Below, piece by piece: positions 266 through 7,286 of a stretch of 7,286 nucleotides of DNA (position 1 is its first letter; every line of letters begins with the position of its first letter). Location: contig JAJZEJ010000089.1 in assembly GCA_021828635.1 (NCBI GenBank), positions 1-7,286 on the forward strand, in the 5' to 3' direction. A program made the translations under genes and the position numbers. The notes below the pieces were generated by a model that made no database searches, had not been told where the DNA came from, and was given only the letters and a program-made list of their open reading frames with translations. The stretch is from Chloroflexota bacterium. Lineage in GTDB: Bacteria; Chloroflexota; Ktedonobacteria; Ktedonobacterales; Ktedonobacteraceae.

Positions 266-1447
266 TTACATCAACGGCACGATCTCGTTCTGGATTGGCA
301 CACCCGTCACTTCGGCGTCATGCTCGAAAATGAGCAGGTTGACCTCGCTGCGAATGCCAAATTCGGGCAGGTAGATACCCGGCTCAACAGAGCAACAGGT
401 GTTGGGCAGCAAGACACGCTCATCCTGCGTTTCGTAGTTATCGAGATTCGCGCCGTTGCCGTGTTCAGCGGTGGTGATGCTATGGCCGGTACGATGCACA
501 AAGTAGTCGGCATAACCGGTCTGCGCAATCACTCCGCGTGTCACATCGTCCACGTGACGCCCCTCAACCAACTCACCAGCCGCCAGACGCTCACGTACAT
601 AGGCAATGCCACTATCACGGGCGCGACTCACAATCTCAAAGATGTCGCGTTGATGCTGAGGAATTTCGGAACGTGTCCCGGCAAAGGCCACCCAGGTGTA
701 GTCGGCATAGATGCTCTCAGGTTGTGGCAGATGCGCCCAAAAGTCGAATAGCACTAGATCGCCACGCCGGAGCGGGCTATGTTCTGTAGCGGTTGGCAGA
801 TAGTGCGGATTGCCGCTATGCTCGTTGACACCAATAATCGGCGGCTCATCCATCACCAATCCGGCTTCACGCACCAGCGCCATAAAATGCTGCTGCACGA
901 TATACTCGTCAAGCCTCACCCCCGCTTGCAACTCATCACTCAACCAGGCGAACAATTGATCTTTCGCGGCGATCAGGCGGCGACCAGCTTCGCGGTGGCC
1001 CACGATCTGTTCCGCGCTCAACTGCGCCACAAAACGCTGCACCAGATTGGCCGAACTGACCACATTCACGCCAAAAGAACGTACCATTTCGACTGTACCG
1101 GCATCGACACGCGCAATATAAGGAATAGCATTCATAGGTGAATATTCCATCGCAATTCGCGCACCAACCGACAACAAGTCTTGCAAGAGACGTTGCATCT
1201 CCAACCATGTGCGGAAGACGCGCCGTTCCCCCGGCAAACCACGCAAGACGTGCGACTCGACCGCGCTAATCAATACCACTGGTGTACCTTCAGCGGGAAC
1301 AAAATAGCACCAGCGACGTGTGTACATCTCAGTATCGCGCAGGCCCAACACTTGATAAGCTATCGGATTCGATTGGCGAAAATCATAGAAAAGCCAGCCA
1401 TCCAAGTGCGCCTCGCGCAAAGCTTGCTGAATAGATTCCAGGTCCAT
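266..1447 (-). CDS. M24-family metallopeptidase (Xaa-Pro aminopeptidase/prolidase-like)
   Basis: Predicted cytoplasmic dimetal peptidase of the pita-bread fold, probably removing N-terminal residues ahead of proline or cleaving Xaa-Pro dipeptides. From the start chosen here it has 393 residues: a creatinase-type N-terminal domain (about 1-140) and the M24 catalytic domain (about 150-390). All five metal ligands of the family are visible: D235 in FDFW, D249 in YADYTW, H322 in HRTGHS, E355 in SVEPGIY and E368 in IRSEVN. The first Asp lies in DFW rather than the usual DxG, a variant that could mark a subfamily. A longer frame begins with ATG at 1468, but its purine-rich site touches that ATG. 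The ATG at 1447 has GAGAGG eight bases upstream and is preferred. It is transcribed alone, apparently from the TACAAT region near 1501. Activity on proline peptides is inferred from the family. Confidence -1.
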   Translation of the reverse strand: MDLESIQQALREAHLDGWLFYDFRQSNPIAYQVLGLRDTEMYTRRWCYFVPAEGTPVVLISAVESHVLRGLPGERRVFRTWLEMQRLLQDLLSVGARIAMEYSPMNAIPYIARVDAGTVEMVRSFGVNVVSSANLVQRFVAQLSAEQIVGHREAGRRLIAAKDQLFAWLSDELQAGVRLDEYIVQQHFMALVREAGLVMDEPPIIGVNEHSGNPHYLPTATEHSPLRRGDLVLFDFWAHLPQPESIYADYTWVAFAGTRSEIPQHQRDIFEIVSRARDSGIAYVRERLAAGELVEGRHVDDVTRGVIAQTGYADYFVHRTGHSITTAEHGNGANLDNYETQDERVLLPNTCCSVEPGIYLPEFGIRSEVNLLIFEHDAEVTGVPIQNEIVPLM

Positions 1448-1500
1448 AAAAATTACCTCTCGTTTCATCCTTCAAGAGAGCAAAAGACAGAGATATCGCT

Positions 1501-1542: not shown

Positions 1543-1579
1543 CATTGCATGACACCCACAAGGGGTGTCACTACATGTA
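1543..1579 (-). repeat. Palindromic repeat copy 2
   Basis: An 8-bp perfect stem, TGACACCC (1550-1557) with GGGTGTCA (1563-1570), encloses the loop ACAAG. The 15-base core at 1553-1567 on the plus strand equals the core of copy 1 on the minus strand. Taking copy 1 as written on the plus strand as the forward orientation, this copy is reversed. Similarity to copy 3 extends over both flanks (CATTGCA on one side, CTAYATGTA on the other), with a 5-base TGACA indel between the two copies. Confidence -1.
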
Positions 1580-1603
1580 ACGTGCGTTTGAGGCGGCGGA
1601 CCA

Positions 1604-1635
1604 TACATATAGAGACACCCCTCGTGGGTGCAATG
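1604..1635 (+). repeat. Palindromic repeat copy 3, inverted relative to copy 2
   Basis: The core at 1616-1630 reads CACCCCTCGTGGGTG, one base different from the plus-strand core of copy 1 (CTCGT against CTTGT in the loop). Its stem is only 5 bp because the TGACA block present in copy 2 is missing on one side. The outer flanks are the reverse complement of those of copy 2, so copies 2 and 3 form a head-to-head pair separated by about 24 bases, just downstream of the peptide gene. Confidence -1.
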
Positions 1636-1664: not shown

Positions 1665-1907
1665 TTAATAGATTGCCGTCAGGAAGCTAGTACTGATAGA
1701 CGGAGAAACAGCGAGACTCATATTAAAAGCGAGATTGAGACCGACAGAGTTAGTGAACGCGCTGACGAACGGTCCGATGCCAAAACCACCGATGCCACAG
1801 GAACCGCAAGCACCAAGCCCGAAGCCGCCCGCGCCAATTACTGCTGTCAGATCTTCATCACTCAGTTCAAACGAATTGCTAAAGTCATAATCATAAAGAT
1901 TGTTCAT
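1665..1907 (-). CDS. Putative double-glycine-leader peptide (bacteriocin/RiPP precursor)
   Basis: An 80-residue protein that I do not recognise by name but whose plan is that of a secreted peptide precursor. Residues 1-28 form an acidic leader containing ELSDEDLTAVIGAGG, which fits the LSxxELxxIxGG leader pattern of class II bacteriocins and class II lanthipeptides, cleaved after Gly-Gly by C39 peptidases. Predicted cleavage after G28 leaves a 52-residue core starting FGLG. That core is rich in Gly (GIGGFGIG), carries C34 and C37 as CGSC, and ends in a Ser/Thr- and hydrophobic-rich stretch. There is no Lys, Arg, His or Trp in the whole protein, and no charged residue after D19. The start is well supported: AAGGAG (1924-1919) lies 11 bases upstream of ATG, and a sigma-70-like promoter lies further up. 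No modification, export or immunity gene is in the window. Alternatives are an unmodified pore-forming peptide, a Cys/Ser-cyclised peptide, or a signal peptide; activity is inferred only. Confidence -1.
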   Translation of the reverse strand: MNNLYDYDFSNSFELSDEDLTAVIGAGGFGLGACGSCGIGGFGIGPFVSAFTNSVGLNLAFNMSLAVSPSISTSFLTAIY

Positions 1908-1908
1908 T

Positions 1909-1932
1909 GTTAAAAAAGCTCCTTTTGTTAAC
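1909..1932 (-). promoter_or_regulatory. Hairpin sequestering the Shine-Dalgarno site of the peptide gene
   Basis: In the transcript, GUUAA (1932-1928) pairs with UUAAC (1913-1909), and AAAAG (1926-1922) pairs with CUUUU (1918-1914), with one bulged C at 1927 and a GAG loop. The AAGGAG site (1924-1919) is therefore buried in a 10-bp, mostly A-U stem one base before the ATG. A competing weak hairpin, GUUAA (1939-1935) with UUAAC (1931-1927), uses the same bases. The low stability would suit regulated or temperature-sensitive opening, but that is inference. Confidence -1.
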
Positions 1933-1979
1933 TTTTAACGTTCTGGAAAACTCACGTGCAAGCTTTCCGTGTACAACAA

Positions 1980-2010
1980 TGACTTTACCCGATAGAACAC
2001 TCAAAGTCAA
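1980..2010 (-). promoter_or_regulatory. Promoter of the peptide gene, with an inverted repeat (operator candidate)
   Basis: The minus strand shows TTGACT (2010-2005, 5 of 6 to the -35 consensus), a 17-base spacer and TAAAGT (1987-1982, 4 of 6 to the -10 consensus). A start near 1975 would give a leader of roughly 70 bases before the peptide ATG. A perfect 7-bp inverted repeat, TGACTTT (1980-1986) with AAAGTCA (2003-2009) on the plus strand, spaced by 16 bases, overlaps both promoter boxes. A dimeric regulator bound there would cover the promoter, so it is an operator candidate. Confidence -1.
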
Positions 2011-2162
2011 GCTCATCACACTGCATTTATCAAAAATTTCTCTGAAAAATGTAGAGGAAAATCTATTTTTAATTTCTTTTCCAGTCTGAATATGCATTTT
2101 TCATGCAAATCTACTTCCAGCCAATGTATCCCTCGATGTTATGTCATTCAGAAGTGGCTGTA

Positions 2163-2171
2163 TGTTACAAT
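2163..2171 (+). promoter_or_regulatory. Extended -10 promoter of pgeF
   Basis: TGTTACAAT fits the extended -10 pattern TGnTATAAT with one mismatch. No convincing -35 box lies 16-18 bases upstream, which extended -10 promoters can do without. RNA would start near 2178, upstream of the TTG at 2205 and downstream of the ATG at 2103, which argues against translation from that ATG. Confidence -1.
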
Positions 2172-2204
2172 AACCCTGAGATTACAACAGAGAGGATCGG
2201 TATC

Positions 2205-3104
2205 TTGATCGAACAGCACTATAACACGGTATGTTATCTGCAATTTGAGCAGTATCAACAATTTTCAGAAGTCGTACATGGTCTTTTCACACGGCAGGGA
2301 GGCTATAGCGCGGCCCCATATGCCAGCCTCAATACATCAGGCACGCTCAAAGGGGGCGATGATCTTGACAATGTTATTCAAAATCGTCAGTTGACATTAA
2401 AAGCACTCAATTTGGAAGACATCCCTGGCGTCACGCTCTGGAACGTGCATGGCGCGGATGTCGCTGTTTTCGAGCGTGGCGCACCCTGGCGCACCGATTG
2501 GGCGCGGCGTTCATACTACGATCAGGCATGGGAGGCGGCATATATACGCAAAGGTGATGCCATTATCACTCGTGAACGCGGCGTGACGCTGGCACTTTCG
2601 TTCGCCGACTGCACGCCCATCGCTTTCTATGATCCCATACAGAGGGCCATTGGCGTCGCACACGGTGGTTGGCGTGGCACGGCGCGTGGTGTTGTCTTCG
2701 CTACCCTGGCCGCTATGCAGGTCCATTTCGGTAGCCGTCCACAAGATATTTATGTCGGCATCGGTCCCGCTATTGGTCCCTGTTGCTATGAGGTTTCGAC
2801 GGATGTGCAGGAGCTTTTCATGGGAGAACAGGATTTCAGTGAGATACCTACACGTACAGAATATCGTCCCTTAATACGCGAGTCTGCCGTCTTCTCAATC
2901 GTGCAACTACCAAATAAAGCAAGCCTGCGCCTCGATTTAGCCGCCACGACGCGCAAGCAGTTATTGTTGGCCGGTGTGCGCCCGCAGCATATCGAGCAGG
3001 CCGCTATCTGCACCAATTGCTACAAAGATCGCTTTTTCTCGCATAGAGGAGAGAATGGCAAAACGGGGCGCTTCCCATTAGTGATAGCGTTGCGAGAAGA
3101 GTAG
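2205..3104 (+). CDS. pgeF: Peptidoglycan editing factor PgeF (YfiH/YlmD, multicopper-oxidase-like laccase family)
   Basis: A 299-residue protein of the PF02578 family (formerly DUF152). Members act in the cytoplasm to keep peptidoglycan precursors correct, by removing wrongly added L-Ser from UDP-MurNAc, and some show purine nucleoside phosphorylase or laccase activity in vitro. Hallmarks in order, numbered from the TTG start: HGLFTRQGG (25-33), NVHGADV with H82, SFADCTPI with C136, GVAHGGWRGTARG with H153, GPAIGPCCYEV (187-197) and CTNCYKDRFFSHRGENGKTGR near the C-terminus. H82, C136 and H153 match the conserved zinc-binding set. The frame is open back to an ATG at 2103, but that lies upstream of the extended -10 promoter. 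TTG at 2205 has AGAGAGG nine bases upstream and gives a length close to the family norm, so it is preferred. The gene stands alone, divergent from the peptide gene. Confidence -1.
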   Translation: MIEQHYNTVCYLQFEQYQQFSEVVHGLFTRQGGYSAAPYASLNTSGTLKGGDDLDNVIQNRQLTLKALNLEDIPGVTLWNVHGADVAVFERGAPWRTDWARRSYYDQAWEAAYIRKGDAIITRERGVTLALSFADCTPIAFYDPIQRAIGVAHGGWRGTARGVVFATLAAMQVHFGSRPQDIYVGIGPAIGPCCYEVSTDVQELFMGEQDFSEIPTRTEYRPLIRESAVFSIVQLPNKASLRLDLAATTRKQLLLAGVRPQHIEQAAICTNCYKDRFFSHRGENGKTGRFPLVIALREE

Positions 3105-3219: not shown

Positions 3220-4512
3220 TCATGAACCGAAGAGGAAGACTGTGCCGCCCATCATGGCATACAGCAAAATGAGCAGCAGCCCCTCAAGCCAAACCAATTT
3301 GCCATCTCTGGTGATCTCGCTAAAAAGAAACGTTGCCAGGGCCAACGTTGCCAGTTCGATAACGCTAAAGACGAGATCGAGCCGTTGCGGCATCAGCAGG
3401 CTTGCCAGTACCAGCACGGGTGCCATTAACAGAGCAATCTGAATAGAGGAGCCAGCCGAGGCCGCCAGTACCATGTCGATACGCTTATTCAAGGCCATCG
3501 AGATCGTGTTGAAATACTCTGGCAAACCGCCAATTAGAGGAATGAAGATCAGGCCCACAAAAGAGGGGTTCCAGTGCAGAATAGCCGTTACCGGTTCAAT
3601 GGCCCCAACCAGGATTTCTGAGAGGACGGCCACACCAACTGTTGCTAGCGTCAACACAAGAATACTGCGCCAGAGCGGTACCTGTTTCTCCTGTTGTGCT
3701 GGCTTTTGCGTGTTCTCTTGAGCAACGTTGGCACGTGTGTTTTCTTCGCTGACAACTAAGGGCGCGTGATGTGCCGTTTCATGCTCTAAAATAGTGTTGA
3801 CCGTGCGATCAATTGTGCTAAGAACATCGGTTTTGCCAGGATGAGTGCTGCTAACAAGATGCTGTCGGTAGGTGAGCAGACGTGTGATCGCGGCTTGCGA
3901 GCGTGCGCCCAACAATGGCTCTATTTCATCTTGTACTTGCTCACTCTTCTCTCCCACACGAAAAACGCTGTATAAGATTGAGGCGATATAGCCAATCAGG
4001 AGTAGAATAGCAATAAAGTCCGAGAGTGCGACGCCATGAATGGCGATATTCGGCTGATGGCTGTACTGTGCCAGTTGGATAGCTACCGTAGGCAGCAGCA
4101 GGCCGCCGATGCTGAGTGCCAGTAACGAGGCATATTGTCCGGCGGGTTGTGTGGCGAAGTTGAGGTCGCCGTGTCGAAAACCGCCCACGCATACAGCAAC
4201 GCCAAGTACCAGCAGTAGATTGCCAAGAACAGAACCAATGATCGAGGCACTGACGACATTAACCAGCCCGTGACTGAGCGCCAAAATGCCAATAATCAGT
4301 TCTGTGGCGTTGCCGAACGTGGCGAAAAGGATACCACCAATTTGCTCGCCGGTATGCTGCGCGATCTCTTCCACCGAAATACCGATCAGGGCCGCTAGCG
4401 GAAGTATTCCAAGCCCTGCTATAATGAAAATAAGCAGTGGGAAGACGTGGAAGAGTTCCAATAATGGTGCGAGAAACGTGCATACGAGCAGGAAGTACAT
4501 CCATCGTGGCAT
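3220..4512 (-). CDS. Ca2+/H+ antiporter of the CAX type (CaCA superfamily)
   Basis: A 430-residue inner-membrane cation/proton exchanger, probably expelling Ca2+ using the proton gradient. About eleven hydrophobic segments are seen: six before residue 185 and five after 281. The alpha-1 repeat is canonical: GNATELIIGILAL (67-79, with E71) and ASIIGSVLGN (89-98). The alpha-2 repeat holds GGLPEY (328-333, with E332) and MVLAASAGSSIQIAL (347-361). In alpha-2 the usual GNAAEH is changed, with the Asn and the His replaced while the Glu stays. A hydrophilic loop of about 97 residues (185-281), rich in Gln, Glu and Thr, separates the two halves and is longer than in many CAX proteins. GGAG six bases before the ATG at 4512 supports the start. 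The gene is divergent from the PsiE-like gene. The specific ion (Ca2+, Mn2+, Na+) cannot be fixed from sequence alone. Confidence -1.
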   Translation of the reverse strand: MPRWMYFLLVCTFLAPLLELFHVFPLLIFIIAGLGILPLAALIGISVEEIAQHTGEQIGGILFATFGNATELIIGILALSHGLVNVVSASIIGSVLGNLLLVLGVAVCVGGFRHGDLNFATQPAGQYASLLALSIGGLLLPTVAIQLAQYSHQPNIAIHGVALSDFIAILLLIGYIASILYSVFRVGEKSEQVQDEIEPLLGARSQAAITRLLTYRQHLVSSTHPGKTDVLSTIDRTVNTILEHETAHHAPLVVSEENTRANVAQENTQKPAQQEKQVPLWRSILVLTLATVGVAVLSEILVGAIEPVTAILHWNPSFVGLIFIPLIGGLPEYFNTISMALNKRIDMVLAASAGSSIQIALLMAPVLVLASLLMPQRLDLVFSVIELATLALATFLFSEITRDGKLVWLEGLLLILLYAMMGGTVFLFGS

Positions 4513-4562: not shown

Positions 4563-4597
4563 AAACTGCGACGAGTAAAAGAAAGGACATGTACGCG

Positions 4598-5218
4598 ATG
4601 GCACATCCTGATACCGACTCTGATAAACACGAACAATATGAACAGCATGCGCCCGATGTTGCGGCGATGGCTGACATCAAGGACAACCACGTTGCGCATA
4701 ACCACGAGGAAGAGCATGATCCTCTCGCGCATCGCTCAAGCATGTTTCTAGACCGTGTCGATACAATTATCTACGCTATGGTTGGCATCTGCTTTCTTGC
4801 CACCTCCCTGCTGGCCCTAGTCTATACTTTCTGGCAATTTAGCGCGTCTATGCTACTCGATCTACCCAAGCATATTGCTGACCAACAACCGGCCTATCTC
4901 GCCAGTTCCATTGTCAACGTGATCTCTGGCCTGCTACTGGTACTCATCATTGTAGAGATTCTCGGCACCGTGATTCATTATTTGAAATCGCACACTACCT
5001 CGTTGCGCCCATTCCTTTTCATCGGTATTATTTCTGCCACACGAAGTATCTTGTCCATTGGTGCGCGTCTCTCGGTAACGGCAGAATCGGGTTCCACTGC
5101 CACATCAGCGATAGACTTTAATCGCTCGATGATTGAATTGGGCGTCAGTGCCGCCGTCATTCTCGCGCTTGGCATCACCATCAAATTGCTTGGTCGCCTA
5201 GTCGAAGACCGAGAATAA
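4598..5218 (+). CDS. PsiE-family (phosphate-starvation-inducible E-like) membrane protein
   Basis: A 206-residue protein with four hydrophobic segments (about 57-81, 104-127, 138-154 and 179-198). The segment order, with a Glu in TM2 (IIVEILGTVIHYL) followed by LRPFLFIGIISATRSIL, is that of the PsiE family (PF06146), whose biochemical role is unknown. The first 48 residues are a soluble tail with eight His (3, 11, 17, 31, 34, 36, 40, 45) and twelve Asp/Glu, including the cluster HVAHNHEEEH, which could bind metal. An in-frame ATG at 4589 exists, but GAAAGGA (4581-4587) is one base from it and ten bases from ATG 4598, which is preferred. Divergence from a Ca2+/H+ antiporter gene suggests a link to cation or membrane homeostasis, though this is only inference. 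The family call is fairly secure; the function is not. Confidence -1.
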   Translation: MAHPDTDSDKHEQYEQHAPDVAAMADIKDNHVAHNHEEEHDPLAHRSSMFLDRVDTIIYAMVGICFLATSLLALVYTFWQFSASMLLDLPKHIADQQPAYLASSIVNVISGLLLVLIIVEILGTVIHYLKSHTTSLRPFLFIGIISATRSILSIGARLSVTAESGSTATSAIDFNRSMIELGVSAAVILALGITIKLLGRLVEDRE

Positions 5219-5279: not shown

Positions 5280-5867
5280 CTACTTCATAAATGCTTCAAG
5301 GCATGTTTTGATGGTGGGCCATTCTGCATCAATGATGCTGTAATAGACGGAATGGCGATAGTAACCATCTGGCATAACCATATGATTGCGCAACACGCCT
5401 TCTTTCCGCGCACCGAGACGTTCGATGGCACGCTGTGAGGTCACGTTGCGGCTATCCGTCTTGAACTGCATACGAATGGCACCCAACGTCTCGAAGGCAT
5501 GGCGCAACAGCAGATATTTGCACTCCGTATTGATGCGCGTGCGTCTGAACTCAGGTGCTAGCCAGGTCGAGCCGATCTCCAGGCCGCGATCTTGTAGCAT
5601 GATGTTGAGATAGCGCGTTGAGCCAACAAGACGCCCACTATGACGCTCAATAGTCACAAAAGGCACCTGCTGACCAGCCTCCTGCGCTTCTAATGCTACG
5701 GTAATCCAACCGTCCATTTCCACTTGCGTGTTGGGTTGTGGATGGCTCATGTAGCGCCAGATGTCTATGTCATGGCTGATAGCAAAGAGTTCCGCGCTAT
5801 GGGAGAGGCGTAGCGGCTCCAGGCGCACGCTCTTTCCTTCCAACGTAACGGGATTGACTTGCATCAT
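5280..5867 (-). CDS. GNAT-family N-acetyltransferase (RimJ/RimL type)
   Basis: A 195-residue cytoplasmic enzyme predicted to move an acetyl group from acetyl-CoA to an amine, with unknown substrate. From the start chosen here: the N-terminal strand LEGKSVRLEPLRLSH (9-23), DIDIWRYMSHP (33-43), the strand VTIERHSGRLVGSTRY and then EIGSTWLAPEFRRTRINTE (97-115). The C-terminal part has the typical SRNVTSQRAIERLGARKEGVLR (139-160), where the Asn-x-x-S-x-x-x-x-x-x-L-G pattern marks the acetyl-CoA site. The CoA loop reads RRTRIN, where relatives often have RGTGIN-like sequence, so one or two glycines are missing. The frame extends upstream to ATG 5912, but ATG 5867 overlaps the TGA of the upstream GH15 gene as ATGA and has GGAG eleven bases before it. 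It is therefore the likely start and implies translational coupling. Ribosomal-protein acetylation or antibiotic modification are both possible. Confidence -1.
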   Translation of the reverse strand: MMQVNPVTLEGKSVRLEPLRLSHSAELFAISHDIDIWRYMSHPQPNTQVEMDGWITVALEAQEAGQQVPFVTIERHSGRLVGSTRYLNIMLQDRGLEIGSTWLAPEFRRTRINTECKYLLLRHAFETLGAIRMQFKTDSRNVTSQRAIERLGARKEGVLRNHMVMPDGYYRHSVYYSIIDAEWPTIKTCLEAFMK

Positions 5868-7286
5868 TGCACGTTCTGCTCCTGAAAACGAGTGTATTTG
5901 CCAACATACCAACGTACCGTTGAGACCAGTTCGGCATGGCTCCAGGTCAAAGGCGAGACGCTCAAGGGTTCGCTGGTAAAGGGGTTAACCTGCTCAGCCA
6001 TCACGCCACTGGGGAGCGCGTGGTTATGCGCCCATTCTAAGAGCGGTAGCGCCTTGCGCAAATCATCAATCGTCTTGGCACTGGCGATGCGATATTGGGC
6101 CAGCCAGAGCGTGCAGATGAACCAGGGATTGCCCTGTGCCTGCGACAGATCGGACGTGACCTGATGATAGTAGTCGTTCTCATAACGCGACATGCCACCA
6201 ACATCCGTATGCACCCAGAGCGTCTTCTCCATAATCTGCATCGTGCGTACTACGCGCTCATCATCGGCGGATAGCATACCAAACTGGAAGACACTGCACA
6301 GGCTACTATCAATGGTTTCATCCTTTTGCAGGTTGCCCTGTTCGTCTACATTAATCATACGCACAAAATGACCGCTTTGTTCTTCCCACAGATATTGCAG
6401 AGCCGCATTCTTAATCTCCTCAGCCGCCTGCCGATATTTCTGTGCCAAATCATCTTCACCAAAGATGCCCGCGAAGTTGGCCGCAGCATCAAGACCTGCA
6501 TAGACGGCTGCCACGGTATACGTCAGGATACCATGTCGCTCCTCCCAAAGATCATAGGATGGGCTGGGCAATTTGGTATGCGGCTCACGGAAATTCGTCA
6601 TGAAATCGGCACCGGCGACAATCAGCGGGCGGAAATGTGGCGCGACAAATTCCAGATCGTGAAAACACAGGTAGTGCTGCCACAGACTATAGAGTACAAG
6701 CGCGGTTTCGTCTTCCTGGATGGGTAATTGTGGCTTGCCATTTGCGTCAATCCAGGGATGCCAGCTACTGCCCCAGGAGCGGTCGGGGTTGTATTTATGC
6801 ATCAGATAGCCATCAGGCATCATCACGTTACCACAAAAATCATAGAAGAAACGGGTGATCTCTGAGTAACCTGCATGGCTCATAGCATTGGCAACCAGCG
6901 CACCATCACGCGGCCACATATAAGAGTAGCTATCGTCGGAAAAGTGTCGTATATCGGCATCATTGGCGGCTATAATCGCACCACCCTCGTCAATTTGGGT
7001 ACGCAAGATCAGCAAGCTGCGTTTGTAAAAATCGACCAGCGAGGGCGAAAGATCAGCAAAGGTTTCGCCGTCTTTATTGGTCCAGCGATGCCAGTAGTTA
7101 AGCGTGCGTGTCTTGAAGATAGCAGGGCCACGCTCACAGATCATCGCATTCATCTGGGTAACATCGAGGAAGTCAGTACCAACGGCCAACCAGTGGAAGA
7201 CCTCGGCGGTATCACCAGCGTTCAAGCCAGGTACATGCAGCGCCATCGTGCTATCAACAGAACCTTGCGCGATAGGGTTGCGGCCC
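5864..7286 (-). CDS. Glycoside hydrolase family 15 protein (glucoamylase/trehalase-type), 5' end outside the window
   Basis: The frame is open to the edge of the window, and the codons before the ATG at 7246 read GRNPIAQGSVDST, which fits the family. The gene therefore continues upstream and that ATG is internal. About 473 residues are visible, covering the (alpha/alpha)6-barrel catalytic domain; GH15 proteins are usually over 600 residues with an N-terminal beta-sandwich. Numbering from the Met at 7246, YSYMWPRDGALVAN (107-120) is the substrate-binding segment, E235 in YDLWEERHG matches the general acid, and E418 in GVMAEQVNP matches the general base. The enzyme should invert and release glucose from alpha-glucosides. 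Substrate could be starch-like glucans, isomaltose or trehalose, since bacterial GH15 members include all of these. No signal peptide can be judged. Its TGA overlaps the start of the acetyltransferase gene, so the two are co-transcribed. Confidence -1.
   Translation of the reverse strand, partial: GRNPIAQGSVDSTMALHVPGLNAGDTAEVFHWLAVGTDFLDVTQMNAMICERGPAIFKTRTLNYWHRWTNKDGETFADLSPSLVDFYKRSLLILRTQIDEGGAIIAANDADIRHFSDDSYSYMWPRDGALVANAMSHAGYSEITRFFYDFCGNVMMPDGYLMHKYNPDRSWGSSWHPWIDANGKPQLPIQEDETALVLYSLWQHYLCFHDLEFVAPHFRPLIVAGADFMTNFREPHTKLPSPSYDLWEERHGILTYTVAAVYAGLDAAANFAGIFGEDDLAQKYRQAAEEIKNAALQYLWEEQSGHFVRMINVDEQGNLQKDETIDSSLCSVFQFGMLSADDERVVRTMQIMEKTLWVHTDVGGMSRYENDYYHQVTSDLSQAQGNPWFICTLWLAQYRIASAKTIDDLRKALPLLEWAHNHALPSGVMAEQVNPFTSEPLSVSPLTWSHAELVSTVRWYVGKYTRFQEQNVQ

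Follow-up and report, generated by a model that had tools for sequence, protein, structure and literature searches.

The window, that is the entire stretch of 7,286 nucleotides that was analysed, carries on its minus strand a solitary gene for a small peptide with a double-glycine-type leader. How could such a peptide leave the cell when no exporter is encoded beside it, to which family does it belong, and what might it do outside?

The precursor gene and its surroundings

The gene starts with ATG and encodes 80 amino acids followed by a stop codon in an intact frame (Table 1); at the level of sequence, it is a real gene. The gene content marks the host as ktedonobacterial: the best-named relatives of the window GH15 protein are ktedonobacterial, and the gene order GH15-GNAT-PsiE-exchanger is also found in L001 and L002, two loci from Ktedonobacterales MAGs. 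The initial annotation had seen no C39, LanM or radical-SAM gene in the window, and a Pfam scan of the six larger ORFs likewise detected none of these, nor a YcaO protein or a sensor kinase. Rfam and tRNA scans of the window gave no matches.

Table 1. Coordinates of the features in the window, with the evidence for each.
Feature	Position	Strand	Basis
Precursor peptide gene	1665..1907	-	ORF; homologues P0001, P0002; family alignment A5
Leader, residues 1-26, predicted end Gly25-Ala26	1830..1907	-	Register in 17/17 A5 members; numbering of the LahT150 paper (available text); translation
Predicted core, residues 27-80, 54 aa	1668..1829	-	Alignment A5 and sequence
Shine-Dalgarno AAGGAG	1919..1924	-	Sequence; 11 nt 5' of ATG
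Promoter box TTGACT-17-TAAAGT	1982..2010	-	Consensus scan, alignment with G001, pattern searches
Possible 5' hairpin, between promoter and Shine-Dalgarno	1944..1969	-	3-sequence consensus fold, weak
Imperfect 39-nt inverted repeat directly downstream of the peptide gene	1548..1635	.	79% complementary arms; fold z = -5.4
M24 peptidase	266-1468	-	Pfam scan
YfiH/laccase-domain protein	2103-3104	+	Pfam scan
Na/Ca exchanger	3220-4512	-	Pfam scan
PsiE-like protein	4589-5218	+	Pfam scan
GNAT acetyltransferase	5280-5912	-	Pfam scan
Truncated GH15 glucoamylase	from 5864	-	Pfam scan

Of 18 ktedonobacterial M24/YfiH junctions seen, two were not fetched and 16 were read. A LytR-CpsA-Psr-type gene lies between M24 and YfiH in 15 of these 16, and a multicopper oxidase replaces it in the remaining one. 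In the window this slot (1468-2103) is occupied by the peptide gene, and the LytR-CpsA-Psr-type gene is absent there. The YfiH-like ORF probably begins further downstream than its annotated ATG, as homologues within the class align from about residue 31-34; a later start would widen the intergenic space around the promoter box. An ORF at 1891-2097 on the minus strand was rejected as a separate gene, its similarity to mini-ORFs of the MAG G001 coinciding with the common promoter and hairpin, though it might be translated.

The window contains three copies of a palindromic repeat with CACCCCTTGTGGGTG, two of them exact and one with a single mismatch (0.01 expected), at the sites 223-249 and 1548-1635. 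The pair at the latter site forms a long hairpin immediately after the peptide gene, where a scan detected no terminator-like site. None of the 217 loci searched contains the 15-mer of this repeat, which may be a species-specific extragenic repeat.

A ktedonobacterial peptide family

Among 5.8 billion proteins, two close homologues of the window peptide were found (E 1e-37 and 6e-33), both metagenomic. P0001 is 88% and P0002 67% identical to it over 100% of the query. A profile that included two peptides of G001 retrieved 17 proteins at E<=1 from 7987 scored candidates. The family alignment A5 likewise has 17 rows: two of these matches (P0136 and P0138) were dropped, and the peptide of the window was included together with the second one of G001. 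The entry P0124 corresponds to the first peptide of G001 and is hence not independent. The homologues keep both leader and core. Residues G25 and P46 are invariant in A5, a C-G-x-C-[GS] module is present in 14 of the 17 members and a GPF motif in 13. All members contain at least two cysteines, and in 16 their number is even. Cores are poor in charge: seven of the 17 lack K, R, D and E altogether and 12 have at most one charged residue, while that of the second G001 peptide has seven.

At codon level, comparison of the window gene with the G001 copies gave 36% identity at third positions and 51-62% at positions 1 and 2. The initial annotation had named homologues with a conserved leader as a telling sign; such homologues are present in P0001, P0002 and alignment A5.

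No named family could be assigned to the peptide, as had been anticipated. The window peptide matched nothing in Pfam at E<=1 and only a Maf-like entry of NCBIfam, by chance (E 0.17). For the 17 members, the best Pfam match was Lamprin, a low-complexity hit (E 0.00095), and no NCBIfam family scored better than E 0.0066. PF10439 and TIGR01847, the models proposed earlier for a search, do not appear among the families reported for these members at E<=1. No relative of the peptide was found on viral contigs and no match on plasmids, and two peptide patterns run against genome contigs gave 74 pattern matches, none of them a relative. A search across the phylum (400 genomes drawn from a larger group, at most 13 candidates scored per genome) gave matches at E<=0.001 in six genomes; five are Ktedonobacteria already seen, and the sixth match (G085) sits inside a frame of 284 aa. 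The accessible portions of the open-licence PMC literature, which leaves subscription papers outside its scope, yielded no description of the family. In the libraries searched, the core family thus seems to be undescribed, while a double-glycine precursor with a C39 exporter is an already known kind of system.

Leader and predicted cleavage site

According to the available text of the LahT150 paper, a PCAT leader has hydrophobic residues at positions -4, -7 and -12, Gly at -2 and Gly, Ala or Ser at -1. The corresponding register, L-x3-[ED]-L-x2-V-x-G-[GAST], was sought with a regular expression allowing near-equivalents. Among the 57 complete ORFs in the window that reach 40 aa, only the 80-residue peptide contains it, with L15 at -12, D19 at -8, L20 at -7, V23 at -4, G25 at -2 and A26 at -1. 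Shuffling the peptide 20000 times produced it 42 times, and it is found in all 17 members of A5. Residue 26 is Ala in 13 members and Thr in four, the latter lying outside the Gly/Ala/Ser set given in that part of the LahT150 paper.

Since V23, L20 and L15 fit the register only there, cleavage is predicted after Gly25-Ala26, and the core would therefore comprise 54 residues. The initial annotation had given 52; the cut after G27-G28 is rejected by the register and by conservation, the two residues that follow position 26 being GG in only 12 of the 17 members. The rest of its description agrees with the present results: the gene is a lone double-glycine-leader gene preceded by a Shine-Dalgarno site, the leader is acidic (six D/E and no K/R in residues 1-26) and the core is Gly-rich (20% Gly over 54 residues). 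This core is devoid of K, R, D and E and consists of the Gly-rich CGSCG module, the GPF motif and a hydrophobic, Ser- and Asn-containing tail. AlphaFold predicted no fold for the peptide (pLDDT 44.5); the sole confident helix-like element comprises residues 17-25, at low pLDDT.

A close parallel for the leader is provided by the substrates of peptidase-containing ABC exporters (PCAT/AMS, C39 family), for example in the LahA/LahT system: the register is the same (L-12, D-8, L-7, V-4, G-2, A-1), and family relatives lie beside a C39-ABC gene. In contrast, the window gene has no nearby exporter, and its core is unlike any model searched.

Link to C39 exporters

In G001, two family peptides are encoded in tandem (L098:8554-8805 and 9232-9501). 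They are followed by an ORF for a 188-aa HlyD-like protein, with a weak N-terminal match to TIGR01843 (39 residues, E 0.0044), and then by a 784-aa protein combining C39, ABC membrane and ATPase domains. This exporter matches PF03412 at 7e-37, and its best NCBIfam match is TIGR03796 (696 bits, under the cut-off of 853). The neighbours of the cassette that were scanned are housekeeping genes.

Across the class, C39 is found in 25 of 47 genomes. Leader-type matches to A5 (E<=0.01) occur in 10 of these 25 and in none of the 22 genomes without C39, a co-occurrence not independent of genome size, larger genomes holding more of both. Of 28 such matches, 19 have a strong C39 match no more than 10 kb away, with about 0.15 expected; counted by distinct loci, the figure is 10 of 19, with about 0.11 expected. 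Omitting the C39 locus of G001, the peptides of which are in the model, leaves 17 of 26 matches and nine of 18 loci near C39. These counts used 75 of 86 C39 rows, 11 weak ones (E 2.8e-9 and above) being left out, and the expectation takes positions to be random within genomes of the given size, without regard to contig breaks. Leader-type loci away from C39 are common (9/19). Since most class-wide matches span the leader region only, the clustering supports the leader type and not the window core.

A larger array was observed in Ktedonosporobacter rubrisoli, where nine GG-type peptide ORFs, mostly near copies, occupy L215:7345-10774 on the minus strand. A short HlyD-like gene and one for a C39-ABC protein follow them, and LanM is absent from the 18 kb read.

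Because two relatives in G001 directly precede a C39 exporter, and in view of the co-occurrence of leader type and C39, the window gene is probably an orphan precursor of a ktedonobacterial double-glycine family, exported by a C39 exporter encoded elsewhere. The initial annotation had left a choice between an orphan served in trans and an unknown type of system; the former is now the best reading, with export itself predicted. Transcribed from its own promoter, the gene would give rise to a peptide whose leader helix (L15, L20, V23) engages the C39 domain of a PCAT whose gene lies at another site of the genome. The PCAT would cut after Gly25-Ala26 and export the uncharged core, whose two cysteines may pair as a disulfide.

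Export by this route would also suit a secreted signalling peptide, since pheromones, according to the literature available in part, also use C39 exporters. However, at 54 residues the core is rather long for a pheromone, the window lacks a sensor-kinase gene, and a pheromone model was matched weakly by one member only (E 0.15), so that such a role is improbable.

A common promoter box

A promoter box is common to the window gene and both G001 peptides, and their 200-nt upstream regions align. The box pattern TTGACN{10,17}TCGGGTAAAGT occurs once in the window and in none of 200 shuffles. In the 47 class genomes it gave six matches in five genomes, while a reversed control pattern gave one match in all 47. 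Two of the six lie in G001, each 89 nt before a family ATG; three precede an orthologous gene for a 337-338-aa protein in sister genomes, and one precedes a LacI-like gene in G005. A consensus promoter scan of positions 1450-2200 returned three sites against a shuffle mean of 1.4, which is not significant alone. The region downstream of the box may fold into a hairpin of nine pairs, one of them compensatory, one one-sided and one broken in the window; support for this fold is weak, as it comes from three sequences, two being almost copies of each other.

These upstream elements bear on whether the gene is still functional. A leftover from a cassette, decayed or never exported, could account for the absence of an exporter from the window and for the position of the gene in a slot where relatives carry another gene. 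However, frame, Shine-Dalgarno site and promoter box are all intact, two close metagenomic homologues keep the core, and third codon positions are the least conserved against the G001 copies, which makes a leftover very improbable.

Possible modification of the core

According to the available text of two papers, RiPPs of Ktedonobacteria have been catalogued mainly via modification enzymes (PMC6497799, PMC3951391). The class II lanthipeptides described there come from the same bacterial class and have a GG-type leader like that of the window peptide. A lanthipeptide of this kind, which had been named among the possible types, is nevertheless unlikely here on sequence grounds. The G001 assembly, a possibly incomplete MAG, contains no match to LanM (DUF4135), against 22 of the 47 class genomes that do; its one LANC_like frame (938 aa) lies on another contig than the cassette. 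Moreover, a RAWK/YAWK prefix is carried by 20 of 22 leader-type peptides of LanM cassettes and by none of 17 in LanM-free C39 cassettes, counts that include orthologous cassettes of sister genomes and a LanM label assigned from DUF4135 match coordinates; the RAWK prefix is absent from all 17 family members. Modification by LanM is therefore unlikely, and the mersacidin type was rejected.

Like precursors of the TOMM/microcin B17 type, the window peptide has a Gly/Cys/Ser-rich core with CGSCG, which raises the possibility that, before export, a YcaO protein acting in trans turns the module into azoles, or another enzyme modifies it. G001 indeed encodes two adjacent YcaO-domain proteins, one above the cut-off for the SagD type (TIGR03604, 319.5 vs 219.25), and the best match to A5 outside G001 is an SCGSCG-rich peptide that adjoins YcaO genes in G035 and G037. 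However, the YcaO genes of G001 lie on a separate contig of 3.8 kb, where no precursor of their own is visible. No YcaO-type enzyme was found in the window or on the G001 cassette contig, of which 12 proteins were read by Pfam and the remainder by eye. The peptides beside YcaO have no GG register at the right place and their match may be compositional, the leader of the family is of the PCAT type, with no YcaO gene near its members, and G001 lacks LanM. A modified RiPP is accordingly rated as unlikely: azoles may be formed in trans, and the absence of modification is the simplest reading.

The SCGSCG/Trp-rich peptide (L216:4014-4472(-), L217:4448-4966(-)) has two YcaO-domain genes as neighbours in G037; G035 contains the same frame. 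It resembles an azole RiPP precursor and has no NCBIfam match.

Possible role outside the cell

The same export route would serve a class II bacteriocin or microcin that leaves the cell unmodified or with a disulfide and kills competitors. The leader fits, the relatives in G001 adjoin a C39 exporter and a HlyD-like gene, and they occur in tandem. Precursors, a short C39-ABC gene and HlyD are likewise combined in group III of the cyanobacterial bacteriocin clusters, as far as the accessible part of their description extends (PMC3140520), whereas the HlyD-like gene of G001 encodes only 188 aa with a weak TIGR01843 match. Members of the family also show weak leader-level matches to bacteriocin and lantibiotic models, but none better than E 0.0066 (NCBIfam) or 0.016 (Pfam) for any member. 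Furthermore, the window core carries no charge, and inspection by eye revealed no immunity gene next to the window gene or in between those of G001, immunity proteins being variable. A bacteriocin is possible on this evidence, yet doubtful.

Another precedent is provided by EbfG1-4 of Synechococcus elongatus, GG/GA-leader proteins that, in the available text, are exported via C39 and needed for biofilm (PMC4997328); EbfG1-3 are reported in the accessible part of a second paper to form amyloid (PMC9981879). EbfG1-4/PteB and the present family have in common small GG/GA-leader proteins and a C39 exporter without a named modification enzyme. The uncharged window core, the low charge of most other cores and the even cysteine number of 16 members speak for such a role, as does the likeness to the amyloid hotspot A-Phi-N-I-Pi as given there, of which AFNMS (residues 60-64 of the window peptide) matches four of five positions. 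The strict motif [A][FI]NI[GS] is found in none of the 17 members, the nearest in P0003 being AFNMS; a widened motif, drawn after the family had been seen, is present in 10 of 17, with about 0.7 expected from shuffles. The tail of the window core alternates in hydrophobicity (beta moment p=0.001 vs shuffles), but p<0.01 was reached in only four of the 17 members, two of them with near-identical tails, and not in the other 13. On an aggregation scale, p<0.05 against shuffles was obtained for one of 17, the window peptide, and the lack of a fold in the AlphaFold prediction likewise counts against this role. Biofilm and amyloid behaviour belong to EbfG, while the present family is known from its sequences.

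Outside the cell, the core might thus act in a self-assembling matrix or at the surface, in the manner of EbfG, rather than as a classical bacteriocin; on our analysis this role is narrowly preferred to that of a bacteriocin, with less than even confidence. More broadly, and as a tentative suggestion, Ktedonobacteria may export via C39 uncharged Gly/Cys/Asn-rich peptides that would build an extracellular matrix or surface coat, as the counterpart, in Chloroflexota, of the EbfG amyloids known from cyanobacteria.

The window gene and its relatives add to the Ktedonobacteria a peptide family not represented among the Pfam and NCBIfam models searched. Mining led by modification enzymes easily misses cassettes of GG peptides, a short HlyD-like gene and C39, as well as orphan precursors such as this one. 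Should the cores self-assemble, export of matrix proteins via C39 would no longer be confined to cyanobacteria.
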